Assembly (NCBI GenBank): GCA_023484515.1
Contig: JAMDAY010000029.1
Span: 1-51,463 of the forward strand
Source of the DNA: Patescibacteria group bacterium
GTDB taxonomy: Bacteria; Patescibacteriota; Doudnabacteria; UBA920
Direction of reading: 5' to 3'
DNA: 51,463 bases
Positions 18,650 through 39,000 of this stretch are shown piece after piece. The notes beneath the pieces are model-generated. The model was not told the DNA's origin. It made no database searches and worked only from the letters and a program-made list of their open reading frames with translations. Position 1 is the stretch's first letter. Every line of letters begins with the position of its first letter. The position numbers and the translations under genes are program-made.

Positions 18650-21600
18650 TTATTCACTATAGTTTTGTTCAACAGGGACGCTGCCTGGCGCGACATTGGT
18701 TGTATTATTGGCAGGAGCGGTGCCGGTATCTGCGACGGGGTTATTAGACGCGCCTGCGCCGGATGCGGAACCGGGATCCGAAGTTGGGGTTGCAGAATTT
18801 AAATCCGGAGCCGGAGGCTGGGGTTTTTCAGTAGAGGCATCTAAAACTTCGCCGGAACCGACGCCGCCCGGATTAGCTTCTTTGACAGTCCCAGATGCCG
18901 TATCAACTTTTACATTAACGTCCTTGTCGGAACCCGTCGTATTTTCCCCTTTGGGATTATCCGCGCCAGCAGGAGCCGGAGGCTGGGAAGACACAATAAT
19001 CTCCGGCTGGAAAGCCGCCGCAGGTGCCACTTGAAGGTTAAAGGAAGATTGCCACTGCGTGTCCAGGGGCTGGGCCATGGCTATCCAGTCAAAAGTAATG
19101 TCAGAGGCTGCCGGCTTGCTGATTTGAATAGCAAAGCCGGTTTCTGTTTTGTCAGCCACGCCATAGAAGAAGTCAGGCAAGCCGTTAAAGCTTACCGTAA
19201 CTTTTGGCACGGTTAAGTAAGGCACGTTAAACGTCACAGCGGTTTGATTGTCCCCTTGCTTAATGGTAGCCGTGCCGGCCGTGTCCTTGCCTACGTTTAA
19301 GTGTCCTATTGTGGTTATGTCCCCTACCGCGTTGATGCTAAACAGCGTAGTGGTGGAATTCTGGATGGTGAGGACGTTCTGGCAATTATTGATGACGGAC
19401 ATCTGGGGCAGCCCCAGATGCCTGTCATCTGGGATGCATTCCAGGTTAGACAAAATGGAAACCGAACCGGAAGATGCCACCAAGAACCGGTCCTGCCCGT
19501 CTTTTTGGAGCTGGAGAATATTACCCGCCCCCATTTGATTGATTAAAAACGACAACGGCGTGTCCGTGGCATCCGCATTGGTTAATAATTTATCCGCACT
19601 GGCGTGCGTGCTTAACTGTCCGTCACTTTCGCCCAAAATAAACTTATTATTAATTACCTGGTATCCAAGCTTTACAAAGGCTAAAACAGTGCCGGCTGAA
19701 CCAAGGGTGGTGCTGGCCACTTCGGGATTGCCGTCAAAGTTTTCCAAAGCTTGCCCAATTACCTGGCCGGAGTGAGTCGCTTTCATGGCATAGCCCGGGA
19801 AATTTTTGGAAGCTGTCAGGTAATCGCCGGGCTTTATGTCGCCGTTCTCGTTGGTAACCTTAACCGGCACGCGTCCGGACAAGGCTACGGGAACATTGGT
19901 GGCATTGCCGAATTTTTCGGCTTTGAATCCGCCGAGCAAAATGCCGGGCTTGGTGGAAATTATGCCCAAAACCGCAGAGGTAGAAGAAGCCTTACCCACG
20001 TAAACCGGAAAATCGCCGCTGGCCGCCGCCACGTCGCCAGGCTCCAAAATTTCTTTGGTCGGATACTGTTCGGCCACGTCCACCCCGCCGACCACGGTGC
20101 CGTTGTTGGCATAAATCCGGCCCGCGGTATTGGCGCCGGTGCAGGAGTCGTCCGTGTCCACACACAGCCAGCCATTGGCAACCTGCACATTGCCGCCCGA
20201 TGCGGCCGACCCCACATGCAGCCTCTGTCCCGGTCCCGTGTTTCCAACACCTACGTTGCCGTTAGCGGCATCAATAGTTATCCTATCCGCATCCGAAGCT
20301 AAACCCGCTTTAATTCCTAATTTAGATGATAAGCGGTAAACGCCATAAGTATAGTTGTCCGGGGTATCCATCCAAATACCGGTAGCATCGCCGCCAGTAA
20401 AAATTGGCGCGGTAAACGATGCCCCGCCGTTAACAGACAATGGCTTGCCCGGATTTGTAACGCCAATCCCCACATTTCCGTTCGGCAGCACGGTAAATAA
20501 GGAATCACCCGAAGAGGAGGTAATGGTTAAGAGAGGTAAAGTGGGGTTAGCGCTAGAGCCTTGGAGGGACAAAAGGGAGGATGGAGATGTGGATCCAATA
20601 CCCATGTTCCCCGCTTGGGTCATACGCAGCAAAGAAGCGCCGGAAGTGGAGGAAATGTCAAAAGGATCTACGGTGGAAGCGCCGGTCACGGACAGGCGGG
20701 CTGCGGGAGAAGATGTGCCAATGCTGACATTGCCTTCGCCATATGGCTGTAGCAGCAGGTTTTGGTTGCCAACGCCCGTAACTCTTATTGCCGCGTCATT
20801 GCCTGTTTGCTGAATGCTGACATACTTTCCTCCGGTGCTGTCATAAATTTTCAGCATTTCATTGCTGGATCCGTCAAACAAAGCCAAAGCGCCGTTTTGC
20901 GGCTTAATATTCGTATAGTTGGCGTCAAAGCTGTCGGAAAAGCGCAAATTTCCGTTTAAGTAGATATCATTGCCGCCCACATTCAAATCCCCGCCCTGCA
21001 CGTCCAGCTTATACCCCGGACTTGTCGTCCCAATGCCGACGTTGCCAGAGCTTAATCTCATCGTTTCTATTGAACCGCCGCTATAAATAATAGTGTCATT
21101 CCATTGTCCCGATGCCAACAATACATGATTATCGGTGCTGGTTTTTAATATATCCCTGTATGATTCAACATTGTTAACTTTTGATTTAATAGCATAGTTA
21201 TTTTCCAGAGCAATATTACCATTATATACATGCAATAATTCTTGCGGACTCGTCGTCCCGATGCCGACATTACCGTTAGACAAGACAGTAAGCAAAGAAG
21301 ATCCGGAAGAGGAAGCAATGGTAAGCAATGGGATGGCGGGAGCGGTAGAGGTACCTTGGATAACCAGATTAGAAGAGGGGGAAGAAGAGTTAACGCCCAC
21401 CATGTAGCCAAAGTTATTATAAACGGCATTGGTAGAAGAAGCCCAACCGATTGACGAGCCGGAGCCTACCCCGCAAGAACCAGCCTGCAAGAGTCCAGCA
21501 GCCGATGTACCAATGCACGACTGGCCTAAAAGGCCAGTCAGTGCCAAAGAAGTAGCCGTTGCCTCGCCAGCGGAAGAAACCATAAACTGGTTATTATTCC

Positions 21601-24600
21601 CCACCGTCAACAGCTGGCTCGGACTCGTTGTCCCGATGCCGACATTGCCGTTCTCTACTATTAACCCATAATTCATCCCGCCACTAACAGCACTAAAGTA
21701 ACCACCGATATTAGTCCCTGCCCCGCTACCACCGGCATAACCATATACACCATAACTTGTCCCGCTGTTTGCCCCTGTAGCTACGCCTTGCACACCATAA
21801 TTTGTTCCACCAGTAGCACCGTTATAACCATAGACCCCTGTAGACCCAGCCACACTAACGGACGATTTGAACTGACCGGCAACATATAATTTAATCCCTG
21901 CTGAATCTGCCGCGCCAACTCCCGTATTCCCCGTTGTCGTATTCACAAACAACGCCGGTGTGCTTCCTGTCGCCACGTTTAGATTCCCCCACACGTCTAG
22001 TTTGGCAGCCGGCGAAGTCGTCCCAATGCCGACATTACCATTCCCCTGAATAACCATTTTTACTGTCTCCCCATTTCCAAGCGCTTCATCTGAAGCAGTG
22101 AAAGCCAAACCTCCTGCCCACCCGCTACCCGAACCGGTTGAACTATAACCGTAAATTCCACCCAAAGCCTCAGAGCTGCCTGAAGCCCACTGTCTTACAA
22201 ACTTGACTCCATGGGAAGGTTTTGTCACATCATATCCCCAACCTGAACTTTCCGTAGATTGATTTACATCTAAGGTTAATTGGCCGGAAAGAACACTATT
22301 CGTCGCTGTAGCCTGATTAACATAAAGTTGAGATGATGGAGTGGTGGTGCCAATACCGACGTTGCCTGAGCTGGTAATTATTACGTTTGCCCCCGACGCC
22401 GCACCTGCGGCCTGTCCAAACTTAATGTTGCCAGAGGTTCTAAAACTGACATCTCCTGACAAGTCCCCGGCGTTCAAACCGGTAAATAATATTGAACCTG
22501 TTGGTTCCGTATTTTGAAAATATATGTCTGAAGAGGCAGGCAAAAGCCTAAAATACGCCGTGGATGTATCGTTGCCAATCACCAGTCCTTTATTGCCCGG
22601 CACAACAACCGTTCCATCATTATTCGACCCGCTTCCTTCAATCCTAATCGCTCCATTCACATCTAACTTGGCATTCGGACTGCTCGTCCCGATGCCCACG
22701 TTGCCGGTTGTTGCATTTAACCAGCTATTTCCATTTGAATCCAACCGTATTGCTTGAGTGTTTCCATTGTAAATATCGAAGGAGTATTTAGCCTTGTCAC
22801 CATCTTGGTACATTCGCATAGTGCCGCCACTACTAGAGCCGGGAATAATATACAATATGCTACCGTATTGCCCATCAACAGTTCCAATTTGGCCGCCGTA
22901 ATTATTTCCCGTTATGGTAACACCAGCACTTGTGGCAAGAGGGCCTTGCACCTGCAATCTTGCGCCTGGACTCGTCGTCCCGATGCCGACATTACCGTTA
23001 GACAAGACAGTAAGCAAAGAAGATCCGGAAGAGGAAGCAATGGTAAGCAATGGGATGGCGGGAGCGGTAGAGGTACCTTGGATAACCAGATTAGAAGAGG
23101 GGGAAGAAGAGTTAACGCCCACCATGTAGCCAAAGTTATTATAAACGGCATTGGTAGAAGAAGCCCAACCGATTGACGAGCCGGAGCCTACCCCGCAAGA
23201 ACCAGCCTGCAAGAGTCCAGCAGCCGATGTACCAATGCACGACTGGCCTAAAAGGCCAGTCAGTGCCAAAGAAGTAGCCGTTGCCTCGCCAGCGGAAGAA
23301 ACCATAAACTGGTTATTATTCCCCACCGTCAACAGCTGGCTCGGACTCGTTGTCCCGATGCCGACGTTGCCGTTGCCGAAATAAGAAGCGGTCGAGTTTA
23401 AAACCAGCGGCCGGCCGGTAAAGTTTCCGGAGGCGTCGTAGGCATTAAAGAAAGTGGAATTGCCGCTTTGCACTATCCGGACAGTACCGCCGGTTATCGC
23501 GGTGGTGTCTTGCAGCCGTATGACGCCGCCGGAAGACGCGCCGATGTGCAGCTGGTCTAACGGAGTGGTAATGCTGCCTATAGCCACGTTGGCGCCGAAC
23601 ACCGCCTGGGGGGTAGTGGAAGCGGATAACTGCAGGTACATCTGGCTGCCGGAGGTATTGTAAAAACTCGTCCGTTCGGAAGAAACGTCGGCCTGCAGCA
23701 CTTTGTTGGTGGCGCGGTTGATGTTAATGAACAACGGACTGATAAAATTATTGCCCGACTGGCCGATGGGCATGTACCGCAGGTACATTTCCGAGGTGGT
23801 GGCGGCATAGCCGGGATTGTAGTAGCTTGATTCCTGTCCCCAGAACAGCATCGGCTCGCTGGAGGTGGCGGGAGAAAAAATAGTATCCGACAGGTTATAC
23901 CCCCACCAGGACACGTCGCTGGCTCCGGACTGGGAAGCCGGAAAAGTCCTGATGCTGTAACCGGCGTCGGGAGCGGTATCCGTCGGGAACTGGATGACCC
24001 GGTTCACGCGTATGGTGCCGTTCACATCCAACTTGTACGCCGGACTCGTCGTCCCAATGCCCACGTTCCCACTCGGCAGCACGGTAAACAAAGTATTGCC
24101 GGAAGAGGAGGCAATGGTTAACAGAGGGACGGAAGGATTAGTGGAAGTTCCTTGAATGGTGAGGTTGGAAGAAGGAGAAGAAGAGCCTATGCCCACATTG
24201 CCGGTCAAGTAATATATATCATTGCCAGAAGTGGTCCACTGGGAACCAATATAAGGGGAACCGTTTACGTAAAACGAGGAGGCATTTACAATGCCGTTAA
24301 CATCCAGGGCAAAAGCGGGGGAAGAAGTCCCAATCCCCACCCTGGTATTGCCCGTATCCACGAACAAAGCGGCAACCGACGAAGTCGCTACATTCAAATT
24401 ACCCCAAATGTCCAATTTCGCCGACGGACTCGTCGTCCCAATCCCAAGATTGCCGGCTTGCGTCACGCGCAGCAAGGAAACGCCGGAAGTGGAGGAAATA
24501 TCAAAGGGATCTATAGCCGAAGCGCCGGTAACGGATAAGCGGACTGCTGGCGATGAGGTGCCAAGGCCAAGGCGGTGATTGGCGAGGTCATAAAAGAAAT

Positions 24601-26125
24601 TGGAATTGTCTTCGTCCATGCCGCTTGCCCCCTGGAAGATAACAGACCCCGGAGTTAAGCCGGGGTTAATGCCCGTTACGGTCAAATTGGCAATGGTGGT
24701 AGAACCGCTTAAGGTTGTTTCCCCGCTCACAGCCAGGCTGGCGATTGCGGTAGTTGCAAGCGAAGCGGTACCATTTACCATAAGCGGGCCGCTAAAAGTT
24801 GCCGTGCCAGCCGTAAGCTTGGTATTAACGCTGGCAGTGTCCGTAATCAAATCCAGTGACGATAAGTGGGTAATGCCGGCCAGGCTTCCGGGAACCGTGT
24901 TGCTGTTGCTTGTCGGTTGGACAAAGCTAATTAAGCCGCCGCCGTTAATGCCTGCCGCGCCGGGATCCCCTTTGTCCCCCTTGTCCCCTTTTTCGCCTTT
25001 AAACTTTCCTTCGTCCAAATACTGGTTCAAGCGCTGGCCAATAAGCGAATAAATTATGTCCTGGTCCTGGCTTAAAACCCTGGTAATGCTTTGTTGGATA
25101 ATGGTTGTTGAAGCTTGCCGTCCAAAATTCCCGTTTTGAACATTTTCCAAAAGTTGGTTGTTTTTCGGCGTATTGCTATCTTTGAATATATACCAAATTG
25201 TTTCTCCCCAAGGCGCTATTTTATTATTTGGAATTAGGCCTGCCCACAAAACAGATGCCGCAAATCCGGTAATGGAAATTATTACTGCCAGCGCCAAGCC
25301 AAGTTTGCTAAACTTAGGCTGCTGCCGGAAGCTGCCGTAAAGTTTGCAAAGGCTCAATGTGGAAAAAGCGCTTAAGTTTTCCTTTTCCGATCCGTGCTGA
25401 AATGATTTTTGAGCGTTTTCGTGAAAAAGAAAATTAGATATAAAACGATTTTTTAGCAAATCTTCTTTCGCTGGTTCGGGAACGCTTAAAACCGCGGGTG
25501 GTGTTTTTCCTAAAATTCCTTCCGCTAAAAAGCCCTTGCCTTTTACTTGCCCTTTAAAGCCTTCCCCATTAGCCATGCTTTCGGTTCCCGCCGGGGCCGG
25601 GGCGAAAGAATGCCTGTCAACATTCTGCAATTCAATTTTTGACCGGAGCTGCTCCGACTTTTCCTGTATTTGCCTGTGCGAATTTTCCAATTCCAAAAGT
25701 CCCTGGGAAATCTTGTCAACCCGTTGTTCCAAGCTCTGTAATATTTCCTGCCTTAAATTGCTTAGACGCGGTTCGCCATGGCCAGACTGGGACTGCTGCG
25801 ACAAATTTTCTGCTGCCATTGGCTCGTTATTTGCCGCGCCCTGGTTGGCATTATTTTTTTGGGAATTTAAAACCGCAGCCGGTTCAATATGTACGGGAAG
25901 TTTTACCCCTGTTCCGGAAGAGATTCCACCAATCTCATTGCCATTCTCAACCGCAAACTCGTCTAAAGCCTTTTTTGTGGTTACCCAATTTCTGCCCACC
26001 TTGAAACCTTTAAGCCTTTCAGAGCGGCATAAAAAACTAAGGTAATCCTGGTGATATCCCGTTAATTTGCTTGCTTCGGCAAGCGAAATAATATTATCTG
26101 AATTTTGTTTAAACTGAATATTCAC
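18650..26125 (-). CDS. giant HTH-TM-collagen-like-'GIGTTSP' repeat fibre protein (2491 aa)
   Basis: HTH-like SLAEASKLTGYHQDYLSFLCRSERLKGFKVGRNWVTTKKALDEF; TM LGLALAVIISITGFAASVLWAGLIP; GEKGDKGDKGDPGAAGING; about 20 NVGIGTTSPxxKLDV-type repeats. Confidence 0.9.
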   Translation of the reverse strand: MNIQFKQNSDNIISLAEASKLTGYHQDYLSFLCRSERLKGFKVGRNWVTTKKALDEFAVENGNEIGGISSGTGVKLPVHIEPAAVLNSQKNNANQGAANNEPMAAENLSQQSQSGHGEPRLSNLRQEILQSLEQRVDKISQGLLELENSHRQIQEKSEQLRSKIELQNVDRHSFAPAPAGTESMANGEGFKGQVKGKGFLAEGILGKTPPAVLSVPEPAKEDLLKNRFISNFLFHENAQKSFQHGSEKENLSAFSTLSLCKLYGSFRQQPKFSKLGLALAVIISITGFAASVLWAGLIPNNKIAPWGETIWYIFKDSNTPKNNQLLENVQNGNFGRQASTTIIQQSITRVLSQDQDIIYSLIGQRLNQYLDEGKFKGEKGDKGDKGDPGAAGINGGGLISFVQPTSNSNTVPGSLAGITHLSSLDLITDTASVNTKLTAGTATFSGPLMVNGTASLATTAIASLAVSGETTLSGSTTIANLTVTGINPGLTPGSVIFQGASGMDEDNSNFFYDLANHRLGLGTSSPAVRLSVTGASAIDPFDISSTSGVSLLRVTQAGNLGIGTTSPSAKLDIWGNLNVATSSVAALFVDTGNTRVGIGTSSPAFALDVNGIVNASSFYVNGSPYIGSQWTTSGNDIYYLTGNVGIGSSSPSSNLTIQGTSTNPSVPLLTIASSSGNTLFTVLPSGNVGIGTTSPAYKLDVNGTIRVNRVIQFPTDTAPDAGYSIRTFPASQSGASDVSWWGYNLSDTIFSPATSSEPMLFWGQESSYYNPGYAATTSEMYLRYMPIGQSGNNFISPLFININRATNKVLQADVSSERTSFYNTSGSQMYLQLSASTTPQAVFGANVAIGSITTPLDQLHIGASSGGVIRLQDTTAITGGTVRIVQSGNSTFFNAYDASGNFTGRPLVLNSTASYFGNGNVGIGTTSPSQLLTVGNNNQFMVSSAGEATATSLALTGLLGQSCIGTSAAGLLQAGSCGVGSGSSIGWASSTNAVYNNFGYMVGVNSSSPSSNLVIQGTSTAPAIPLLTIASSSGSSLLTVLSNGNVGIGTTSPGARLQVQGPLATSAGVTITGNNYGGQIGTVDGQYGSILYIIPGSSSGGTMRMYQDGDKAKYSFDIYNGNTQAIRLDSNGNSWLNATTGNVGIGTSSPNAKLDVNGAIRIEGSGSNNDGTVVVPGNKGLVIGNDTSTAYFRLLPASSDIYFQNTEPTGSILFTGLNAGDLSGDVSFRTSGNIKFGQAAGAASGANVIITSSGNVGIGTTTPSSQLYVNQATATNSVLSGQLTLDVNQSTESSGWGYDVTKPSHGVKFVRQWASGSSEALGGIYGYSSTGSGSGWAGGLAFTASDEALGNGETVKMVIQGNGNVGIGTTSPAAKLDVWGNLNVATGSTPALFVNTTTGNTGVGAADSAGIKLYVAGQFKSSVSVAGSTGVYGYNGATGGTNYGVQGVATGANSGTSYGVYGYAGGSGAGTNIGGYFSAVSGGMNYGLIVENGNVGIGTTSPSQLLTVGNNNQFMVSSAGEATATSLALTGLLGQSCIGTSAAGLLQAGSCGVGSGSSIGWASSTNAVYNNFGYMVGVNSSSPSSNLVIQGTSTAPAIPLLTIASSSGSSLLTVLSNGNVGIGTTSPQELLHVYNGNIALENNYAIKSKVNNVESYRDILKTSTDNHVLLASGQWNDTIIYSGGSIETMRLSSGNVGIGTTSPGYKLDVQGGDLNVGGNDIYLNGNLRFSDSFDANYTNIKPQNGALALFDGSSNEMLKIYDSTGGKYVSIQQTGNDAAIRVTGVGNQNLLLQPYGEGNVSIGTSSPAARLSVTGASTVDPFDISSTSGASLLRMTQAGNMGIGSTSPSSLLSLQGSSANPTLPLLTITSSSGDSLFTVLPNGNVGIGVTNPGKPLSVNGGASFTAPIFTGGDATGIWMDTPDNYTYGVYRLSSKLGIKAGLASDADRITIDAANGNVGVGNTGPGQRLHVGSAASGGNVQVANGWLCVDTDDSCTGANTAGRIYANNGTVVGGVDVAEQYPTKEILEPGDVAAASGDFPVYVGKASSTSAVLGIISTKPGILLGGFKAEKFGNATNVPVALSGRVPVKVTNENGDIKPGDYLTASKNFPGYAMKATHSGQVIGQALENFDGNPEVASTTLGSAGTVLAFVKLGYQVINNKFILGESDGQLSTHASADKLLTNADATDTPLSFLINQMGAGNILQLQKDGQDRFLVASSGSVSILSNLECIPDDRHLGLPQMSVINNCQNVLTIQNSTTTLFSINAVGDITTIGHLNVGKDTAGTATIKQGDNQTAVTFNVPYLTVPKVTVSFNGLPDFFYGVADKTETGFAIQISKPAASDITFDWIAMAQPLDTQWQSSFNLQVAPAAAFQPEIIVSSQPPAPAGADNPKGENTTGSDKDVNVKVDTASGTVKEANPGGVGSGEVLDASTEKPQPPAPDLNSATPTSDPGSASGAGASNNPVADTGTAPANNTTNVAPGSVPVEQNYSE
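21246..21643. repeat. 398-bp intragenic repeat, copy 1
   Basis: Appears identical by eye to 22968..23365 (ggactcgtcgtcccgatgccgac ... ggactcgttgtcccgatgccgac). Confidence 0.9.
22968..23365. repeat. 398-bp intragenic repeat, copy 2
   Basis: Appears identical by eye to 21246..21643. Confidence 0.9.
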
Positions 26126-27015
26126 TTTATTTTTTTAATAGCTCCTTTTTTTCTTTCTTTGTGAGGATTATTGGGTAATCTCGGATACCCGATATCTATA
26201 CATATTTTAACTGTTTTAAAATATTTAGGCCAACTATTTTATGCATATTTTTATTAACATTTATCTAATTTTTGTGTTTCATTTTAAATTTTTAAAGCCA
26301 ATTTAACATCGTAATAAAACTGCTACTATGTCAAGCAAATCTTTAAAATTACATCATAATATTATTCAATAAAATGGTTCAAAATACCTACTAACATTAA
26401 AGAACGAAAATTGTGCAACAATATTGTTTCAAAATTAAATTTCTATATTAATTAGACCGCTATATAATTATTAAGAACAAATTGATCATGTAATTCGGGT
26501 TTAATTTGGGTGAAACATCCACCAAAACACGTAAATGCGTCTTGATAATATTGATTATTTATCTAAATTGATTTTACATTAAATAGCCTTAATAAAAATC
26601 CGCTATTAAGTATTTTTGTAGATTCATTTCTACAACTCAAACATCATAGGCACGAAAGAAGATCTTGGATGTTAAAATTTTTGCCCTATTAGCTGTAAAT
26701 AAGGGAATATTTGCTTTTATTATTTTTTTTAACATATAGCCAAAATTTATTAAAAAAATCAATCTGCTATTATTGAAATTAGCTGACTTAAAAGCATATG
26801 GACATTTTAATTAAAACGTTCGTATACTTTAGCACAATACACTTGTCATGCAAATACACATGAAACTTTAATTAAAAGCTCATTTTAACTTTTTACCGAA
26901 TACGTATCCTAAATAATCAAATTTGTCCAAAATTGATTGTTTCATGACATATTTTTATTATTAACTGTCAAAAATTTATTTCACTCAAATTTTATCCACA
27001 GTTTATATAAAATTT

Positions 27016-27051
27016 AAAATCCCGTCCCGGCTTTCGCCGGGACGGGATTTT
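27016..27051 (-). terminator. strong hairpin terminator
   Basis: aaaatcccgtcccgg-ctttcg-ccgggacgggatttt, 15-bp perfect stem just past the stop of the 2625-aa gene. Confidence 0.8.
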
Positions 27052-27063
27052 AATGATATTTGT

Positions 27064-30000
27064 TTAGGGCATCACCAGGAAAAACGGATTGGTTTGGTAT
27101 TGTCCCAAATAAGGATAATACGAATTATTAACTCCCGCCATTTCTTCCAAAACCACATTCCCTTGGCTATACTGGCCCAAATAAGGATAATATACGTTGC
27201 TTAGGTCTACCATTTCTCCTAATACTAAACCATTTTGGCTTTCAACACTGCCTACTGCTACAAAGCCAGATGGATTGTTCTGGTTGTTATATTCCGTGGC
27301 TATCCAGGATTCGGACCTGGCTGTTTTGGAAACCCGCACTTCATCCATGCTGCCGTCTGCCAAAGAGGCTGAATACAATCGCGAACCGCCTAAAGTCAAA
27401 AGCTCGTCGTAGCGCACGGGCTGGTAACTAAAGTAACTGCTATAATTAACCGCCTTGCCGTTAACATAAAGATTCTGGTTAGGGTAACCGGCGGAATTAT
27501 AAGTTCCCGCAATATGATACCACTGGTTAGCGTCCAAGGTGGTGGCATAATCCGTACTTACCCTGCCATAACTGGGCAAGAAATTGGAAATGCTTAATTT
27601 GCCGGTAGCGCTGCTATAGTAAAGCGAAGGGCCGGCGGAATCGTTATAATTAACCGACTCTATCAGGCGTTTAACAGCGGCTGATCCTGTCTGCCAGGTT
27701 GAGGCGGGCTTAAACCATAACTCATAAGTAAAGCTGGTGTCGCGGTCGCCCGCAAAAGCCGTACTGGAAACCTTTTGGCTGGAACCGTCAAAGGTTAAGG
27801 CCTGACCGATCTTACCGGAGGCAAGCCCGTTGCTTCCCGACATGCTGCGGCTATTTTTGCTGTCAGACAAGTTATTACCGTGATAAACCGCCCTAAAATC
27901 ACCGTCCCATACTCCAGCTTTGTCTTGTTGGTCGGAAGCGTAACCGTTGCCGTAATAAACATAAAATGCGGTATCATTGGAAGAAGACAAGGAAGGAAGC
28001 TTAACCCAAGCCGTTAATTGGCCGGTTGAGGAATTATAGCTATCCAGCTCATGGAATAGTTTGGTTTTATTGTCCTGAGATACGAATACAATGTCAGTAC
28101 CGTCAGTCTTGCCAACCTTGCCGCCGTTAACGGTTGACTTTAAGTCATTGGAAGACAGGCTAACCAAGACCGGGAAATTAGAAAGGTTGCCAGCAACTTG
28201 ACCGTGGTTAACGGTTAATTTTTGGCGATAATTCCAAGAGGCATTATACCAGTCAGCCAGGGTTTCCGAATTATTCACCGTCACCGTTACCGAGGCAGTA
28301 GCCGCATTGCCTGCGGCATCCCTGGCTACGGCGGAAATAGTATGGGAGGCATTAGACAGTGTCTTGGTATCCAAGGCCAGTTCGTAAGGGGCAGCAGTGT
28401 CTTCAGTGCCTTGGTTTGTCCCGTCCACCTTAAACTGCACGCCGGCTACTCCGACATTGTCGGTAGCGGAAGCAGAAAGGGTAATACTATTGGAAACCGT
28501 TGAGTTATTGGCCGGAGAGGTTATGGAAACGGTAGGAAGGGTGGTGTCGGAAGGGTTGGAACCGCCTGCCTGCTTTGTCCATAAAACTTGGGCAATGGCC
28601 AAATCGGTATTGTCATAATATTCCACCTTAACCAAATGGCCGCCTGCTGTCAAAGCCTTGGTTACTTTATAGGTAGTTGGTGCTTGGTCTTTCCATTGGT
28701 CAACCACCGGAATACCGTCCACGTAAACTCTCACGCCGTCATCAGCAGTCACGACAAAATCATAGTTGGCATTCTCAAAAGTAAAGTTGCCTTGCCAGCG
28801 GACGGAGAAATGGTCAGCCGGAATGGTCGAGTCGGGCTTGCCAGTGCTCCAGTTAAAATTAATGGAGTTGTCCGTGCGTGACGAGCCAAAGTTGGTTAAG
28901 TTCTGGTCAGTATAATAACAGCCGGTAAAAGCATTGGTGGCGGGAGAGGGGCAGGACGAAGGAACAACAGGATTATTCACCGTCACCGTCACGCTGGCGG
29001 TAGCCGCATTGCCTGCGGCATCCCGGGCTGTGGCGGAAATGGTGTGGGAGGCATTGGACAGAGTTTTGGTATCCAAGACCAGCTCATAAGGAGCAGCGGT
29101 ATCTTCACTGCCCTGGCTTACCCCGTCCACCTTAAACTGCACGCCGGCTACTCCGACATTGTCGGAAGTGGAAGCAGAAAGGGTAATACTATTGGAAACC
29201 GTTGAATTATTGGCAGGAGAAGCTATGGAAACGGCAGGAGGGGTGGTGTCGGAAGCTGCTTGTTTGGTAAAGGCGGCAGAGACTATATTGCTGTCCGTCA
29301 TGCCTGATTTAACCGCTTTAGCCTTAACAGTGGCCGACTGGGTTAAAGTGATGGGAGAGGAATACACCAGGGAAGGATTGGAGCCGTCCGTAGAATAATA
29401 GATGGTAGCGCCGGAAGTAGCCGAAGACAAAGTTACGGTCTGGGCGGAAGTGAACGTGCCGCCATTGGGGGAAATGGCGGGGTCGGAGACTTGGGAGGGA
29501 GCGGAACCGGCAGGAGTAATTTCAATTGCATTAACCATGGCATTGTCAGACATCGTAGTAAACTGCAGGCTAATTTTACCGTCAATCACGTTAACGGTAA
29601 AAGTCTTGTCTAAAGCCTTGTTTATTCCACCGGCCTGGGCGAAAATATCAAAGCTGGTCAAAATCTGGCTGTTATTTAACGAAACGTTGAACAGCCGATT
29701 ACCTGCTCCGGCCCAATAAGTTTCCGCAAACTTTAACTTAACTTGATAAGCGCCATTAGGAACATTAAAATTATAGGCAAAGCCGCCGTAACGGGAAGTC
29801 TGATATAAGGCCGAAGCATTAGTATTGGCAATGGCAGAAGATACGCCGTAGTTGTTACCGCCGGAGTAGTTCTTGTCCGCACTCCAGACAACACCGGCAG
29901 GATCGGTATAAGCAGATCCGCCGACATTGACGCGATAGGTATCGGGAATCGGGTTAATTACCGTAACCGCCGCCGAATCCGTGGCTATATTGCCGGATGT

Positions 30001-33000
30001 ATCGCGCACAACCACGGAAATGGTATGAGAGCCATTAGCGACGGAAGTGGAATCCCAAGAAACGGCATAAGGCACAGCGGTATCTTCCGAACCGATATTA
30101 ACCCCGTCCACTTTAAACTGCACGCCAGCTACTCCGACATTGTCGGAAGCGTTTGCGGCGAGATTAACCATTCCAACAACAGTAACGCCTGCGGCTGGCG
30201 CGGTCAAATCTACAGTTGGCGGAACCGTTTCTGACGAAATGGATTTAGTAAAGCCCGCGCTAACTACATTGCTGTCTGTCATGCCGTTTTTAACCGCCTT
30301 GGCCTTGACTGTGGCAGATTGGGTTAAGGTAACAGGGGAAGAATAAACCAAGGAAGGATTGGAGCCGTCCGTAGAATAATAGATGATAGCGCCGGAAGTG
30401 GCCGAAGAAATGGTAACTGTCTGGGAAGAAGTGAAAGATCCGCCGTTGGGAGAAATGACAGGATCGGACACGGATTGGGGAACAGGACTTAACGTAAAGG
30501 TTTTCGGGGAGCCCGGCAACAAGACATTGGAAGCGCCAGTAGCGTCATTTAAGTCTATGCCGTAAGCGTAAACCTTATGAGCCTTTCCGTCTTTGTAGCT
30601 GTCAGGAATGGAAAAGTTAAAGGCATGATTACCAATGTCGCTCCTATTATCCCCTGCCGTAACGCCGATCGGGCTAACATTGGAACCTGGTTGACCGTCA
30701 AAATACAGATGCACGGAAATAGCCTGGCTTTCGTTGTCCGGATCCTTGGCCCAGCCATAAACCGTGCCGTCGTTCTTTACCCCGTCCAGGCTGCCAATAG
30801 GTTTTTGGTTGGAAGAAGGAGGCGTGGTGGTCTTTTTGACCCAATTAACCCGGGCGGTAGCGCCGCCGGATTGTTCAAAATATTCCACCTTTATCTCATG
30901 GACGCCTGCGGTCATGGCCTTGTCAGCCGTATAAGTTACTCCGGTCTGCGGGTACCACTTGTCAATTACCATTTGATTATCTACGTAAACCCTAATGCCA
31001 TCGTCCGGAGTGGCGGAAAAGGTATATAAGGAACCATCAAAGTCAAAGTTGCCAACCCAACGGACAGAGAACCCATCCGTAGGCATGCTGCTGTCCGGAC
31101 TGCCATAGCTCCAACTGAAATCCACGGCCGGATCCATGCGCATCAGCTTTAAGGAATCAAAATTGGTGCCATTATAATAGCAACCGACAAAAGCGCCGTT
31201 AACCGGCTGATTGCAAGTCAATTGCGGATTATTAACCGTTATGGTAATGGAGGACTCAGCTTTATTGCCTGCAGCGTCCCTGGCAATAGCCTTAATGATA
31301 TGGGACTTGCCGCTTTCCAGGCCAAAAGTATTCAAGGAAGTATTAAAGGGCGCAACAGCCAATTCGGGGCTGGCCGCAGAACCGTCAACTTCAAACATTA
31401 CGCTGACCATGCCTGAATTGTCAGCGGCCGAAGCTTTAAGGGGAATAATTCCGGAAACGGTCTGGCCATTAGCCGGAGAAGTAATGGAGACTGTCGGCTG
31501 AACCGTATCGCCCGAATTGCTGCCGGCCGCTGCCTTTTGGATGATAAATGCGCCAAAGGTAGGGAAAGTGGTCGGCGGCGCATAATCCCAGCCCATAGGC
31601 TTGACCACTGTCCAGCCGTTCATAGGAATGGAAATGGGAGAGCCGTTATATACGCCGGTAATTTTTTCGTTCCAATAGTTTTGAGCGTTGCGGATTTCGT
31701 AAGTATCGCCAGGCTGCAAGCCAATATTGGAAACATCCACGGGTACGCTAACATTTTGGTTCCAGTTATAGATGGTAATATTAGCCCTGCCGGTATCGTA
31801 TTTGTTGGGACGCACAAAGACCTTTACGCCGGTGGGCCGGGAAGTGTAATAAATATTATTGGGATGAGTGGAGCTGTTTACGCCGCTGACGCTGCCGTAG
31901 AAGGTGTTGCCCGTAACAGTAGCCGAGCCCTGGTAATCCAGTTCAAAAGCAACAGCCTGGTCGCTGGCCACGTAGTTATCCTGCACTACCGGGTTTAACG
32001 CGCCGTTATATTTAACAGAAATTCCGCGATTTTCAGGGTTACCCACCGGATAATAAGTGTAGTTGTTTTTCACCACCAAATTTTGCATGGAGGATTCCAG
32101 GGTACCTAAAATAAGGTTTGCGGCCGGCTGGGCAGACAGGTTGGCAACCATGCCGCTGTCAAACGAAGTATTGCCTTCAAAGGTCATGTTGTCGGCACGC
32201 GCGTCAGGATTGGTACCGTAAGCCTGGATACCATGCCCGAAGTTGTCAAAGATAATATTATCCGTGTAATGCTTAGTGCCATAAGCGTTCTGCGTATAAA
32301 TGCCATGGCCATGGCCGCGGTCGCCCAACCCCCCTTCGTAGCCGTCATTGTAAATTAAGTTGCCGTAAATTTCCGTATCAGTATTGCCGATGGCGATCCA
32401 GGCGCTGTAGCCGGTCAGGTCGTGGATAACAAGGTTGATCATCTTGATGTCAGGACCGTAAGTTTCCACGGCCTTGGCGCGATTGGCCGCACCGCCCAGG
32501 CGGGTATTGGTGCACGAAGACATAATTTCAAAGCCCCAGTACCAAGCATGGGCGCCATTAACCCTGAACGCATCATCCGAACCATCGCAGCCGCCGTCAA
32601 TAGCCGCATGTTCACCCGGATATTGGCGCAAAATGACCGGCTTGCTTGCGGAGCCGGTAAGGTTGCTGGTATAAAGCCCGTTATAAATGCCGCCGCGCAT
32701 CCAAACCGTATCGCCGGGCTGGATCCTGCCATTGGCATTATTAGCAAGCACACTGCGCAAATCCCAAGGACTGTTAATGCTGCCATTATTGGCGGACAGT
32801 CCACTGGGAGACACATACCACTGATTGCCGCTTGTTGACCCGCCCGGCACTATGCTAAAAGCAATGACATAATCGTCACCATTGGCATTATGCTGAGCTG
32901 AATTATCTTGGCAGCGGATATAATAAGCATAGCTGCTACCGTCTTGCAAACCGCTTACCGCAAAACTAAAATTGTTGCCCGATGTATTGGCGGCCTGGCC

Positions 33001-34941
33001 GGTCATAGAGCTAAAACCGGTGCTATAAGTGCTATAGCGGCAAGTTGCGGGTTCGTTGGTGGAAAAAGTAACGTTAGCGGAAGTGGTTCCCGCAGGCAGC
33101 GAGCCAGAAGGCAAGCCGCCGGAAATGGCCGGCGGAACCAAGTCAGTCACATTAAAAGCCACGGGCGCGGCAGTGGTGGTATTACCGGCTGCATCGCGCG
33201 CCACCGCAGTTACTATATGGATGCCTGGGGACAAAGGCGCAGTATCCAAGGTTGTGGAATAAGGAGGCCGGTTGTATTCGGCCCGTAGATTCTGGCCGTC
33301 CAGCTTTAGCTGCACCCCCAAAATACCGTTATTGTCGCTGGCTTCGGCCGTAACTTGCACGCTTGAGCCCACCACCTGGTTTGGCGTAGGAGAAGTAATC
33401 ACAACCTGTGGCGGAGTGGTATCAACCGAAGGATTGGAAACCATTCCAGTAGGGACGACTACGAAAACGTTGAATTCCTTGTCCGTGTGCGAAAGGGTCG
33501 TACATGTGCCAGAACAAATGGGCTGGGTAATTTGCGTGTTAGTGGTTGGAATGGCGACCGATCCCCCGCTATACGTTCCGCTTGCTATGGGAGCGCCGTA
33601 ATAGTTTTGCACGTCGCGGATCTCGTACTGCGCGCCCACGCTTAAAACATTGGATAAATCCACGTTTACGCTGTTCAGGCGATCCCAATTGAATATCGTA
33701 ATATTGGCCCGCCCCTGTTCGTATTCATTGGGCCGCACGAATACTTTGGTGCCGGTCGGCCGGGTACCATATTGGACATGGGTATTGCCCGCGTAACCAG
33801 ACAGGTAATTATACGGGGTGTTGGTATATTGAAAATCCACCGATCCGTTAAAAGTATTGCCGGTCAAGGTCAAATTTCTGGTGGCGGAAAACAAGGTGAT
33901 GCCGGAAATATAGTTGTCGGTAACTACCGGATTGGTCGTCCCTCCGGCGTTATAGCCGATATTCAGCGATTGCCCGGTAGAAAGCGGCGTAAAGTAGGAA
34001 TAGTTGTTCCTGATAATGTTGTTTTGGTTGGTTATGCCTCCTCCCACTAGAATGTTCCTTACGTCACCTCCGGCAAGCGCCCCGTTATTAAAGTAGGAAT
34101 TGCCTTCAATGGTAAAGTTATTGATCCAAGCGCCGTCGCCCGATCCATAAAACTGGGAGCCGTGATCCGCGCCGTTGAAGATGATATTGTCGGCCACGCG
34201 GGTGGAAACATAGCGCTCGGCCATGTAAGTGCCATGGCCGTGGCCGCGGTCAGGAGCGACCCATCCGTTGTTATAAACAATGTTGCCATAGAACTCCATA
34301 TTGCCCGAAGTAGAGTAGTTGTCCGAATAGCCCAGGCCCGTTCCCGTGTCGTGCACCACCAGGTTGATGAATTTCAAGTTGGTGCCGAAGACGGAAACGC
34401 CACTGGCCCTGCCGTCGTCGGGGTTGGATCCGGAATTGGGCGAATAGCGGATAGGGTTGGAGTTTTTGATTTCAAAACCCCAGAACCAGGTATAAGAGCC
34501 GTAAGCTTCCAAAGTCGCCGGGGTCAGGTAAATTGAATTGGCATCAATCGTAGCCCGTTCTCCCGGATATTGCCTCACAACAATTGGAGACCCCTCTATG
34601 CCGTTTAAACGGCTTTCGTATTTGCCGCTGTAAGTGCCGCCGCGCAACCAAATGGTGTCGCCCGGCTTGACCGCGCCGTTAGCCCCGCTTAAGGCGGTGC
34701 GCAAATCCCACGGATTATTTATGCTCCCGTTACCCGAGGCGGATCCGTTAGGAGATACATACCACTGGATGCCAGTCGTCACCCCCAACACCCTTCCTGG
34801 ATTGCGGTGCGAAACGGCTGAAAAATCAGCCGCAAAACTGTCAATATAAGATATAGTCTCCACTGTCTGGGAAACCATAAAAGCGCCTGCTAATATAGCA
34901 AGAACGCCAGCTCCAAAGAGCTTGTAGATATGCTTATTCAT
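27064..34941 (-). CDS. giant secreted adhesin-like protein (2625 aa): two beta-helix regions, Ig-like, PA14-like, chitobiase-C-like, malectin-like, DUF2341 and LamG-like domains
   Basis: N-terminal TM/signal; duplicated QWYVSP.G....SIN.PWDLR...QYPGE; PA14-like FSVRW.GNF.F....Y.F....DDG.RVYVD; malectin-like YRVNVGGSAYTD; DUF2341 WNYRQKLTV; LamG-like GQALTFDGSSQKV. Confidence 0.88.
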   Translation of the reverse strand: MNKHIYKLFGAGVLAILAGAFMVSQTVETISYIDSFAADFSAVSHRNPGRVLGVTTGIQWYVSPNGSASGNGSINNPWDLRTALSGANGAVKPGDTIWLRGGTYSGKYESRLNGIEGSPIVVRQYPGERATIDANSIYLTPATLEAYGSYTWFWGFEIKNSNPIRYSPNSGSNPDDGRASGVSVFGTNLKFINLVVHDTGTGLGYSDNYSTSGNMEFYGNIVYNNGWVAPDRGHGHGTYMAERYVSTRVADNIIFNGADHGSQFYGSGDGAWINNFTIEGNSYFNNGALAGGDVRNILVGGGITNQNNIIRNNYSYFTPLSTGQSLNIGYNAGGTTNPVVTDNYISGITLFSATRNLTLTGNTFNGSVDFQYTNTPYNYLSGYAGNTHVQYGTRPTGTKVFVRPNEYEQGRANITIFNWDRLNSVNVDLSNVLSVGAQYEIRDVQNYYGAPIASGTYSGGSVAIPTTNTQITQPICSGTCTTLSHTDKEFNVFVVVPTGMVSNPSVDTTPPQVVITSPTPNQVVGSSVQVTAEASDNNGILGVQLKLDGQNLRAEYNRPPYSTTLDTAPLSPGIHIVTAVARDAAGNTTTAAPVAFNVTDLVPPAISGGLPSGSLPAGTTSANVTFSTNEPATCRYSTYSTGFSSMTGQAANTSGNNFSFAVSGLQDGSSYAYYIRCQDNSAQHNANGDDYVIAFSIVPGGSTSGNQWYVSPSGLSANNGSINSPWDLRSVLANNANGRIQPGDTVWMRGGIYNGLYTSNLTGSASKPVILRQYPGEHAAIDGGCDGSDDAFRVNGAHAWYWGFEIMSSCTNTRLGGAANRAKAVETYGPDIKMINLVIHDLTGYSAWIAIGNTDTEIYGNLIYNDGYEGGLGDRGHGHGIYTQNAYGTKHYTDNIIFDNFGHGIQAYGTNPDARADNMTFEGNTSFDSGMVANLSAQPAANLILGTLESSMQNLVVKNNYTYYPVGNPENRGISVKYNGALNPVVQDNYVASDQAVAFELDYQGSATVTGNTFYGSVSGVNSSTHPNNIYYTSRPTGVKVFVRPNKYDTGRANITIYNWNQNVSVPVDVSNIGLQPGDTYEIRNAQNYWNEKITGVYNGSPISIPMNGWTVVKPMGWDYAPPTTFPTFGAFIIQKAAAGSNSGDTVQPTVSITSPANGQTVSGIIPLKASAADNSGMVSVMFEVDGSAASPELAVAPFNTSLNTFGLESGKSHIIKAIARDAAGNKAESSITITVNNPQLTCNQPVNGAFVGCYYNGTNFDSLKLMRMDPAVDFSWSYGSPDSSMPTDGFSVRWVGNFDFDGSLYTFSATPDDGIRVYVDNQMVIDKWYPQTGVTYTADKAMTAGVHEIKVEYFEQSGGATARVNWVKKTTTPPSSNQKPIGSLDGVKNDGTVYGWAKDPDNESQAISVHLYFDGQPGSNVSPIGVTAGDNRSDIGNHAFNFSIPDSYKDGKAHKVYAYGIDLNDATGASNVLLPGSPKTFTLSPVPQSVSDPVISPNGGSFTSSQTVTISSATSGAIIYYSTDGSNPSLVYSSPVTLTQSATVKAKAVKNGMTDSNVVSAGFTKSISSETVPPTVDLTAPAAGVTVVGMVNLAANASDNVGVAGVQFKVDGVNIGSEDTAVPYAVSWDSTSVANGSHTISVVVRDTSGNIATDSAAVTVINPIPDTYRVNVGGSAYTDPAGVVWSADKNYSGGNNYGVSSAIANTNASALYQTSRYGGFAYNFNVPNGAYQVKLKFAETYWAGAGNRLFNVSLNNSQILTSFDIFAQAGGINKALDKTFTVNVIDGKISLQFTTMSDNAMVNAIEITPAGSAPSQVSDPAISPNGGTFTSAQTVTLSSATSGATIYYSTDGSNPSLVYSSPITLTQSATVKAKAVKSGMTDSNIVSAAFTKQAASDTTPPAVSIASPANNSTVSNSITLSASTSDNVGVAGVQFKVDGVSQGSEDTAAPYELVLDTKTLSNASHTISATARDAAGNAATASVTVTVNNPVVPSSCPSPATNAFTGCYYTDQNLTNFGSSRTDNSINFNWSTGKPDSTIPADHFSVRWQGNFTFENANYDFVVTADDGVRVYVDGIPVVDQWKDQAPTTYKVTKALTAGGHLVKVEYYDNTDLAIAQVLWTKQAGGSNPSDTTLPTVSITSPANNSTVSNSITLSASATDNVGVAGVQFKVDGTNQGTEDTAAPYELALDTKTLSNASHTISAVARDAAGNAATASVTVTVNNSETLADWYNASWNYRQKLTVNHGQVAGNLSNFPVLVSLSSNDLKSTVNGGKVGKTDGTDIVFVSQDNKTKLFHELDSYNSSTGQLTAWVKLPSLSSSNDTAFYVYYGNGYASDQQDKAGVWDGDFRAVYHGNNLSDSKNSRSMSGSNGLASGKIGQALTFDGSSQKVSSTAFAGDRDTSFTYELWFKPASTWQTGSAAVKRLIESVNYNDSAGPSLYYSSATGKLSISNFLPSYGRVSTDYATTLDANQWYHIAGTYNSAGYPNQNLYVNGKAVNYSSYFSYQPVRYDELLTLGGSRLYSASLADGSMDEVRVSKTARSESWIATEYNNQNNPSGFVAVGSVESQNGLVLGEMVDLSNVYYPYLGQYSQGNVVLEEMAGVNNSYYPYLGQYQTNPFFLVMP

Positions 34942-36096: not shown

Positions 36097-39000
36097 TTAT
36101 TCTATTTCCACTTCTTCATCATCCGGCGGATTGGAAGATTGAATGGTTTGATTGCCTAATTTGGGAATGACCAGGGTAATCCCTACGCGCATAGTCCGCG
36201 GATTCGGCACTTTTTCCGCGTTGGCCGCCTGGATGTATATCCATTTAGTGCCGTCGCCATAATACCGCTGAGCCAAGCCCCACAAGGTGTCCCCTCTTTT
36301 TACCGTATATGTGCCCAAAGGCTGGATAGGAGAGCCTAATTCCGCCTTTATGCGCTGCAATTCCGCAGCCGGTGTTGCTGCGCCGGCGGAAGATCCGATT
36401 GTTGCGCCGGCCGGAACTCCAGGGATGACTAAGGTAATGCCTACGCGCATGGTCCGCGGATTTTTTACCTTGTCCGTATTGGCTTCCAAGATTTCCCTCC
36501 ACCTGCTCCCGTCTCCGTAAAACCGTTGGGCTATGGACCACAGCGTGTCGCCTCTCTTAACCGTATAATAAACCGTTTGGGACGGCGGGGTTGCCTGGTT
36601 TTGCCCTTCGGGCGGCACATAGCCCTGAGAGGCGGGATAGCCTGGAGGCATCTGCAGACCTCCCAAGGTTCCCTGATTATTTAAATTATTTAGCTGTTGC
36701 CGCAATTGCTGGTTTTCCTGCAGTAACCTGTTATATTCATTTAAGTATGATGTCCCTCCCCCTCCTGAATTGTTCTGCTGGGCGCGGAGAGCTGCGAGCT
36801 GTTGTTCCAATTGGGCAATCCTTTGCTGCAAGCTGGCCACATTATCTTCCTGACCCGTAATGATAATGGTAAAGGCCTTTGTGGCATAGACTTCCTCACT
36901 TGCTTCATCTTCCACCCTGACAGTAAAAGTATAGCTTCCCGTTGCGGTAGGCGTGCCGGAAATTGTGCCGGTTTCGCTGTCCAGGTCCAAGCCGTCGGGC
37001 AATTCGCCGCTTTCCATGGACCAGACTTTGGTGCCGGTAATGCCGGAAGCCTGGAGGGTTTGACTGTATGGGGAATTCACTGTCCCATTTGCCAAGGTTG
37101 CCGTGGTTATGGCGGCTGTTTGGTCGGAAGCGCTGGTTATTGTCAGAGTAAAGCTTTTAACAGCATAAACCTCCTCGTTTGCTTCATCTTCCACCCTAAT
37201 GGAAAAACTATAACTGCCGGCTGCGGTCGGCGTGCCGGAAATTGTGCCGGTTTCGCTGTCCAGGTCCAAGCCGTCCGGCAATTCGCCACTTTGCATGGAC
37301 CAGACTTTGGTGCCGGTGATGCCATTGGCAGACAACTGCTTGCTGTAAGCCGTGCCGACTTTGCCGTTGGGTAAAGATGTGGTGGTGATAGTGACCGTGC
37401 CTTCTGCCTCTATAACAATGGTAAAAGTTTTCGTAGCGGAAACGGACTCATCTTCACTATCTGCCACCTGCACGGTAAAGGTATAACTTCCCGATTCTGT
37501 AGGCGTACCCGAGATTACGCCGGTTTCGCTGTCCAGTTCCAAACCGCCCGGCAACTCACCCACTTCCATTGACCAAACCTTGTCACCACTGATGCCTGTG
37601 GCTGCCAAAGTTTGGCTGTAAGCCGTGCCGACGGTGCCATCCAATAGGCTAGAAGTGGTAATGCTAGCCTGGGCGGTAGCAGCTGAAGAAATAATAACGG
37701 TAAAATTCCTGGAAGCCGTGTTGGTGCCGTCTGTAACCTCAACGGTAAAGCTGTAGCTGCCGGCCGTGGTCGGCGTGCCGGTTATGGCGCCGGTGGAAGA
37801 ATTGATGTTCAAGCCGGCCGGCAGGGTGCCGGTGGAAACCGTCCAGACTTTGGTGCCGGTAATGCCGGAAGCCTGGAGGGTTTGGCTGTAAGCCGTGCCG
37901 ACTTTGCCGTTAGGCAGGGAAGCCGTGGTTATGGACGCGGTTCCGGAAGCGTCAATTACCAAAGTAAAGTTCTTGGTGGCGGAAACTGACGGATTGGCGG
38001 CATCGGCCACTTTAATCGCAAAGCTGTAGCTGCCGGCCGTGGTCGGCGTGCCGGTTATGGCGCCGGTGGAAGAATTGATGTTCAAGCCGGCCGGCAGGGT
38101 GCCGGTGGAAACCGTCCAGACTTTGGTGCCGGTAATGCCGGAAGCCTGGAGGGTTTGGCTGTAAGCCGTGCCGACTTTGCCGTTAGGCAGGGAAGCCGTG
38201 GTTATGGACGCGGTTCCGGAAGCGTCAATTACCAAAGTAAAGTTCTTGGTGGCGGAAACTGACGGATTGGCGGCATCGGCCACTTTAATCGCAAAGCTGT
38301 AGCTGCCGGCCGTGGTCGGCGTGCCGGTTATGGCGCCGGTGGAAGAATTGATGTTCAAGCCGGCCGGCAGGGTGCCGGTGGAAACCGTCCAGACTTTGGT
38401 GCCGGTAATGCCGGAAGCCTGGAGGGTTTGGCTGTAAGCCGTGCCGACTTTGCCGTTAGGCAGGGAAGCTGTGGTTATGGACGCGGTTGTACCGGTAGTT
38501 ATTGTGACTGCGGTTCCGCCATTGGGCAAAGCCGTAAAATTCCCGCCATGGTCGTCCTGCGCGGCATGGGCTCGGTAGCTGACAACCTTATAAGTCCCTG
38601 GAACCAGGTCTGCGGTAACCAAATGGTCGGCGCTGGCTCCTTGCTGCCAATTTAACACCGTGCTGGTAGTGCCGTTAACCTGAACTTGCACGTCAAAGTA
38701 TACATTATTTAGGCTGGAAGGATTCGGGCTGGTAAAAGTTGCCTTATAAGAATCTCCAACTTTTACGCTAGCCTTATCAAACGTCAGGCCGGTAATCTGA
38801 TAGGCAGTGCTTTCTGTCACCTTAATGGTCAAATTTTTAACGGCCATAACGTTACTGTCGCTGACTAAGGCGGCCCTGACGGCAAAAGTATAAGTGCCAG
38901 CGGCGGTCGGAGTGCCTGATATGACGCCGGTGGTGGAAAGAGACAAGCCGGGCGGCAGGCTGCCGCTGTTGGACCATGTTACGGCCTGATTGTTAAAGCC

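Follow-up and report, generated by a model that had tools for sequence, protein, structure and literature searches.

Transmembrane transcription regulators are widespread in bacteria, as documented by a survey of 10,933 bacterial species (PMC10269533) whose text, in the part considered here, mentions neither Patescibacteria nor helix-turn-helix (HTH) domains of the MerR type. ToxR, CadC, TcpP and PsaE, as presented in that part of the survey, follow a one-component logic in which a cytoplasmic HTH, one transmembrane (TM) helix and an outer domain reside in a single protein. In the portion of a report on Clostridium thermocellum used here (PMC12203970), the RsgI anti-sigma factors likewise combine binding outside the cell with an inner gene-control domain whose output is their own locus. 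Paired half-sites in direct or inverted order, read by a winged HTH (wHTH), are found with BldC, lambda Xis and TraN of pIP501 (PMC5859096, PMC7145599, PMC10877727). Classical MerR proteins carry a dimerising coiled coil and a C-terminal effector domain, and phage-type tail fibres are marked by GIGTTSP repeats and a Peptidase_S74 chaperone. RodZ has an N-terminal cytoplasmic HTH of the Cro/CI type that binds MreB, a TM helix and an extracytoplasmic part.

The window, by which we mean the whole stretch of 51,463 nucleotides analysed here, comes from a 1.3-Mb assembly whose closest named relatives are Doudnabacteria, and it encodes a fibre protein of 2491 residues that can be set beside each of these systems. 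With ToxR, CadC, TcpP and PsaE the protein shares its order of a predicted cytoplasmic HTH, one TM helix and an outer part, but its wHTH is of the MerR/Xis type, a fibre of 2200 residues takes the place of a compact sensor, and a predicted operator lies before its own gene. The OmpR/PhoB-type wHTH of ToxR and CadC (Trans_reg_C) is not matched by the window HTH. Measured against the definition of a transmembrane regulator, a DNA-binding domain and at least one TM helix in one protein, it has a wHTH and one TM helix, and we file it as transmembrane-regulator-like with a MerR/Xis-type wHTH, outside the ToxR/CadC family. Whereas RsgI has an anti-sigma domain and an ectodomain that serves as a sensor, here the inner domain is an HTH and the ectodomain is the fibre itself. 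The wHTH fold, the paired half-sites and an acid like Glu19 of Xis are held in common with BldC, Xis and TraN; the covalent junction of the HTH to a TM helix and a fibre sets the protein apart from them, as does the absence of Lys26 and Arg30 of BldC. A variable linker and a TM helix stand where classical MerR proteins have their coiled coil and effector domain. The repeats match tail-fibre PHROGs, but unlike phage tail fibres this one is encoded by a cell genome, anchored in the membrane and headed by an HTH, and a domain search finds no Peptidase_S74 in it; a paralogue in the same genome, on contig C27, has one. The layout is also similar to that of RodZ, from which the window protein differs in having a MerR/Xis-type HTH with a predicted operator. 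Our search of the open-access literature turned up neither a giant fibre equipped with a regulator of its own nor an operator of the window type.

Architecture and predicted topology

The gene is a single reading frame (Table 1) whose coordinates had been given exactly in the preliminary description, which did not state that it lies on the minus strand. From its N to its C terminus the protein runs through a wHTH, a linker, a TM helix, a stem, a collagen-like segment, the GIGTTSP repeats, a head and a Pro/Ala-rich tail. Inspection of the reading frame and its sequence confirms the arrangement first proposed (HTH, TM helix, collagen-like part, about 20 repeats, Pro/Ala-rich tail), and relatives have the same parts in the same order, which argues for more than chance. 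The linker comprises 205 residues and is polar, with a net charge of +2; its earlier reading as coiled-coil-like holds at residues 120-167, where heptad-like spacing is seen, and fails in the rest of the linker. Hydropathy picks out only one strong hydrophobic segment, at about residues 275-298, and between this helix and the collagen-like part the stem sequence reads YSLIGQRLNQYLDEGKFKG. GIGTTSP repeats number 13 under a strict pattern and exactly 20 under a relaxed one, and PHROGs class the repeat part as tail fibre (phrog_9942, E 4e-41), in support of the proposed likeness to phage tail fibres. Two 300-bp stretches of the fibre gene, 1722 bp apart (21228-21527 and 22950-23249), are 97% identical, and judging by this identity fibre modules were duplicated or recombined within the gene not long ago. 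The head contains a domain common to other Patescibacteria fibres; its AlphaFold model (5 sequences) has a pLDDT of 38.

Which side of the membrane does the HTH face? Across 83 TM proteins, lysine plus arginine stand at 2.98 before the helix and 1.69 after it (positive-inside rule, p = 9e-9), a bias that predicts the N-in/C-out orientation put forward in the preliminary description. No signal peptide was seen before the HTH. A cytoplasmic wHTH is thus supported, as a prediction from the positive-inside rule and the missing signal peptide.

Directly upstream of the fibre gene lies a gene for a second giant secreted protein (27064-34941, minus strand, 2625 residues) with parallel beta-helix, Big_7, PA14, malectin, CHB_HEX_C and LamG domains; the operator motif described below is not found in front of it. 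A third giant protein (36097-42048, minus strand, 1983 residues) has ten Ig-like He_PIG repeats, BACON domains and two C-terminal LysM domains.

Table 1. Features of the fibre gene and its upstream region; positions are those of the window.
Feature	Position	Strand	Residues	Remarks
HTH-TM-fibre gene	18650-26125	minus	2491 aa	single ORF, GTG start
Pro/Ala-rich tail	18653-19012	minus	about 2372-2491	
Fibre head	19076-20083	minus	about 2015-2350	shared domain, then weak H_lectin match (E 0.04)
20 GIGTTSP-type fibre repeats	20213-24571	minus	519-1971	PHROG tail fibre
Collagen-like segment	24926-24976	minus	384-400	GEKGDKGDKGDPGAAG, at about residues 383-398
Extracellular stem, conserved	24977-25045	minus	361-383	YSLIGQRLNQYLDEGKF; 69% identity among relatives
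Single TM helix	25232-25297	minus	277-298	hydropathy; positive-inside rule in relatives
Cytoplasmic linker	25298-25945	minus	61-276	weakly conserved
wHTH, MerR/Xis-type	25946-26095	minus	11-60	Pfam, AlphaFold, Foldseek, conservation
Recognition helix of wHTH			about 25-34	HQDYLSFLCR
Wing of wHTH			about 44-50	GRNWVTT
Predicted operator	26179-26194	minus		TATCGGGTATCCGAGA; two overlapping TATCGGATA/TATCCGATA half-sites, 53 bp before start codon
Candidate promoter	26204-26233	minus		TTGGCC, 18 bp, TAAAAT; weak
Terminator-like stem	27014-27053	both		perfect 18-bp GC-rich stem, GAAA loop; parts fibre gene from upstream giant gene

A constrained wHTH of the MerR/Xis type

Pfam HTH_17 matches the N-terminal 95 residues with E 6e-5 and 23.6 bits, short of its gathering score of 27; the same family is matched by 79 of 87 related domains, with E 7e-9 for the best relatives, and HTH_17 and HTH_59 are the only Pfam matches to the window HTH. 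AlphaFold models residues 11-60 with a pLDDT of ~90 as strand-helix-helix-strand-strand-helix with a wing, and the best structures returned by Foldseek are DNA binders, namely TraN of pIP501, the RdfS and Pukovnik excisionases, Xis and DNA-bound BldC, with TM-scores, normalised to target length, of 0.79 for BldC and 0.74 for Xis. The Foldseek E-values all exceed 0.01, as is usual with a domain of 50 residues, and the structural case therefore rests on fold and TM-score; a sequence search of the PDB gave chance matches only. In nine close relatives, identity to the window copy is 68% in the wHTH, 9-12% in the linkers, 29% in the TM helix and 69% in the stem. A chance HTH or a start-codon artefact is ruled out because the domain is conserved in relatives. 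Together, the Pfam match, the model and the conservation bear out the HTH fold that had been noticed at the N terminus, and by these measures the HTH is a real, constrained domain.

Lambda Xis contacts DNA through Glu19, which bonds cytosine N4 and is required for specific binding (PMC7145599), and the base contacts of BldC are made by Lys26 and Arg30 (PMC5859096). When the two proteins are aligned with the window HTH by eye, on their common fold, position 27 (D/E) falls on Glu19 of Xis, and the residues at the positions of Lys26 and Arg30 are D/E and L/F, which means that the BldC contacts are not conserved. On this alignment, the mode of DNA recognition would resemble that of Xis at one position and differ at the other. 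Within the limits of the tools, the domain proved neither to lack an HTH fold or DNA-contacting residues nor to have the wrong topology, the outcomes that the preliminary description had named as speaking against its own proposal.

Distribution and architectures in Patescibacteria

We scanned for the HTH alone, with one genome per species and blind to TM helix and fibre; the best 80 loci are nearly all from Patescibacteria, and the domain is present in 32 of 145 genomes drawn evenly from the phylum. With classes assigned by simple rules (hydropathy and fibre motifs) and hence approximate, the phylum-wide scan yields 83 HTH genes, of which 45 are HTH-TM-fibre fusions and another 30 encode shorter HTH-TM proteins; a TM helix is present in 75 of the 83, most of the short ones included, and membrane location therefore looks selected. 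A fibre gene follows directly upon 10 of the 30 short HTH-TM genes and upon one TM-less HTH gene, and several further short HTH genes are followed by genes for surface proteins outside our fibre-motif list. The survey of Patescibacteria called for in the preliminary description returned, for the most part, fibres anchored in the membrane or short HTH(-TM) genes immediately upstream of fibre genes.

Locus C27, in the genome of the window itself, holds two genes with a 4-bp overlap, one for a soluble HTH of 84 residues and one for a 2575-residue TM-collagen-GIGTTSP-S74 fibre, a two-gene state that may be a fusion split through assembly error. At two other loci (L102:9426-15057 and L104:9424-13563) an HTH-TM gene of 127-131 residues is followed in tandem by a giant HTH-TM-fibre gene that has its own HTH. 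The short HTH-TM genes of some Paceibacterota (L088, L093, L111 and L121) lie ahead of genes for secreted proteins of other kinds, including a family that has the motif TNYxIDxDSxNFGG, and because of this the HTH-TM module appears tied to surface proteins beyond fibres. Viral contigs gave no HTH match in a first scan and, in a second, one divergent 94-residue HTH that has neither a TM helix nor a site.

A candidate operator upstream of the HTH genes

A motif search in the 400 bp upstream of 27 HTH genes recovered AATATCGGATAnCCGATAT with a log-likelihood of 230; none of eight shuffled sets exceeded 91. The element can be written as TATCGG-N4-CCGATA or, equally, as two overlapping half-sites of 9 bp, TATCGGATA/TATCCGATA, and the TATCGGATA half-sites are frequently arranged as TATCGGATAnCCGATA. 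Site positions reach ~300 bp upstream and direct repeats occur too, with spacings of 7, 11, 12-13 and 24-25 bp. At the window gene, the predicted operator sits just downstream of the candidate -10 box, between it and the start codon; promoter-like sites in the region of TTGGCC/TAAAAT are no commoner than in shuffles. When up to 2 mismatches are allowed, the motif occurs in the 1.3-Mb genome at five places (four for the reversed pattern), namely the window site, one site per soluble HTH gene on C27 and two elsewhere; three of the five precede HTH genes of the window type, with the C27 sites about 200-310 bp before the HTH domain. The genome's fourth gene with such an HTH (C33, 1451 residues) has a single half-site with one mismatch.

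Is the motif tied to the HTH? Outside Doudnabacteria, where 53 of 55 HTH genes had no part in motif discovery, 21 of the 55 have an upstream site of at least 14/16, a density 62-fold that in the rest of these loci. In a comparison with Markov-shuffled upstream regions, sites precede 22/55 long HTH-TM genes (0.0005 in shuffles), 13/36 short HTH-TM genes (0.0014) and 4/11 TM-less HTH genes (0); since some loci are present twice with different ends (e.g. L038, L074) and the species are related, enrichment figures and P-values are to be read as indicative only. In 380 Patescibacteria genomes there are three exact copies of the 16-mer, each upstream of an HTH-TM gene (reversed control 0), and exact paired half-sites occur three times in 12 genomes, again always upstream of HTH-TM genes (control 0). 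When one mismatch is allowed, 9 of 14 places in 49 genomes of the order precede HTH genes (reversed control four) and the remaining places lie inside or near unrelated genes; two-mismatch matches in other genomes are near chance level, so only stricter matches count as evidence there. In about 30% of D/E27 genes, the 380 bp analysed contain no half-site at all. A general promoter element is ruled out by the rarity of the exact motif.

At the start of the genes for soluble Fic-HTH proteins with YSQ[E/D]YL there are inverted pairs of TATCGGATA separated by 24-25 bp; such half-sites are missing from four Fic-HTH genes whose residue 27 is Lys or Ala, one of which has a shortened upstream region; Fic-HTH genes with a matching recognition helix thus look autoregulated as well. 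The loci with inverted pairs at the gene start are L084, L106, L151 and L160, and two of the contigs are labelled archaeal MAGs. Upstream of single-HTH D/E27 genes, exact TATCnGATA sites have a G/C centre in 68 of 72 cases; the only Q27 gene with sites has an A/T centre in all four of its own (TATC[A/T]GATA), at an exact 11-bp spacing. There (L124:9930-9990) the half-sites read TATCAGATA, TATCAGATA, TATCTGATA and TATCTGATA, 11 bp apart. A switch of DNA specificity by the one residue at 27 is possible, and with a single gene this is a lead, not proof.

The HTH is the sole feature common to all proteins having the site, and the motif therefore points to the HTH itself. The statistics of the sites show a near-exclusive tie of the operator to genes with a window-type recognition helix, and we infer that the HTH binds DNA directly. 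The earlier suggestion of a transcription-factor-like DNA-binding module is upheld by the fold together with the matching operator motif upstream.

Proposed mechanism and alternative readings

What would an HTH do at the inner end of a fibre? We consider it likely that a cytoplasmic, sequence-specific wHTH that reads TATCGGATA half-sites makes up, with the TM helix and the outer fibre, a transmembrane transcription regulator that controls itself and has its own fibre as output. The sequence comparisons above give good support to DNA recognition and to local self-control, and a change of transcription at the target gene is suggested indirectly, by the predicted operator in the protein's own promoter. 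The sign of this regulation would be repression, going by geometry: with the site placed between the candidate -10 box and the start codon, negative feedback is most likely. The HTH would bind its own promoter and limit fibre output, and since it is tied to membrane and fibre, promoter occupancy should depend on the amount of inserted fibre and possibly also on folding, trimerisation, loading or cleavage of the fibre outside, such that the state of the outer fibre (inserted, assembled, bound or cleaved) would modulate expression. The genome encodes a site-2-protease homologue; such enzymes occur in all 14 control genomes, and for that reason we name release through intramembrane cleavage only as a possible step. 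Host sensing would be plausible for an epibiont, and autoregulation fits better than a broad host-response regulator because the site is local to the protein's own gene.

A plain autorepressor, in which the HTH limits the amount of fibre without any sensing and its fusion to the fibre is incidental or fixes the ratio of repressor to fibre, is a serious if somewhat doubtful possibility. It would account for the split versions, such as the soluble HTH on C27 under a similar operator, and for a local site with no hint of a wider regulon, but it leaves unexplained why a TM helix is so regularly present, even in most short HTH genes, and why the stem just outside the membrane is conserved like the HTH. 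A more far-reaching version of the self-regulating fibre, which we think unlikely, is group-wide control of the surface, in which adhesive fibres would act as their own transcription factors under a shared operator (three loci here), gate one another, and release the DNA inside when loaded or contacted outside; if true, this would be a one-protein, contact-operated switch of the surface repertoire.

The fold is also common to the architectural binders Xis and RacA (RacA comparison in PMC5859096), and with the membrane anchorage this would suit a tether by which the HTH holds the locus or chromosome at the membrane, as MerR-like RacA does at the Bacillus pole, with no control of transcription. 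Such a tether is quite improbable, for a genome has only about three sites, placed before the HTH genes themselves as operators would be and not dispersed like anchors. We give still less credence to a docking domain that fixes the fibre by binding a protein, as RodZ binds MreB, while the motif is owned by another regulator: acidic and hydrophobic residues at the base-contact positions of BldC, and a near-invariant surface that could suit one conserved protein partner, are in keeping with it, but the motif tracks the HTH over three architectures, soluble HTH and Fic-HTH included, in a manner dependent on residue 27, an acidic residue at the position equivalent to 27 makes the key base contact in Xis, and the domain has a net charge of about +3.4. 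A reading of the palindrome as a 5'-leader RNA hairpin or as a terminator-like structure, in either case unrelated to the HTH, is so improbable that we rule it out, for although an inverted repeat lies near the start codon in several genes, direct repeats, the variable spacing, the distant upstream positions and the lack of any Rfam family above its gathering score all contradict an RNA element.

Implications

Cell sensing and surface adjustment in the ultra-small, host-dependent Patescibacteria are almost unknown, and the source bacterium is probably host-dependent too. The predicted self-regulating fibre offers a testable pair in the form of a protein domain and its half-site of 9 bp; the pair is found repeatedly in the group, linked to fibres that probably make contact with other cells, and the operator allows the system to be sought by sequence alone. 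An adhesin with a DNA-binding regulator of its own would constitute an unusually short signalling path.
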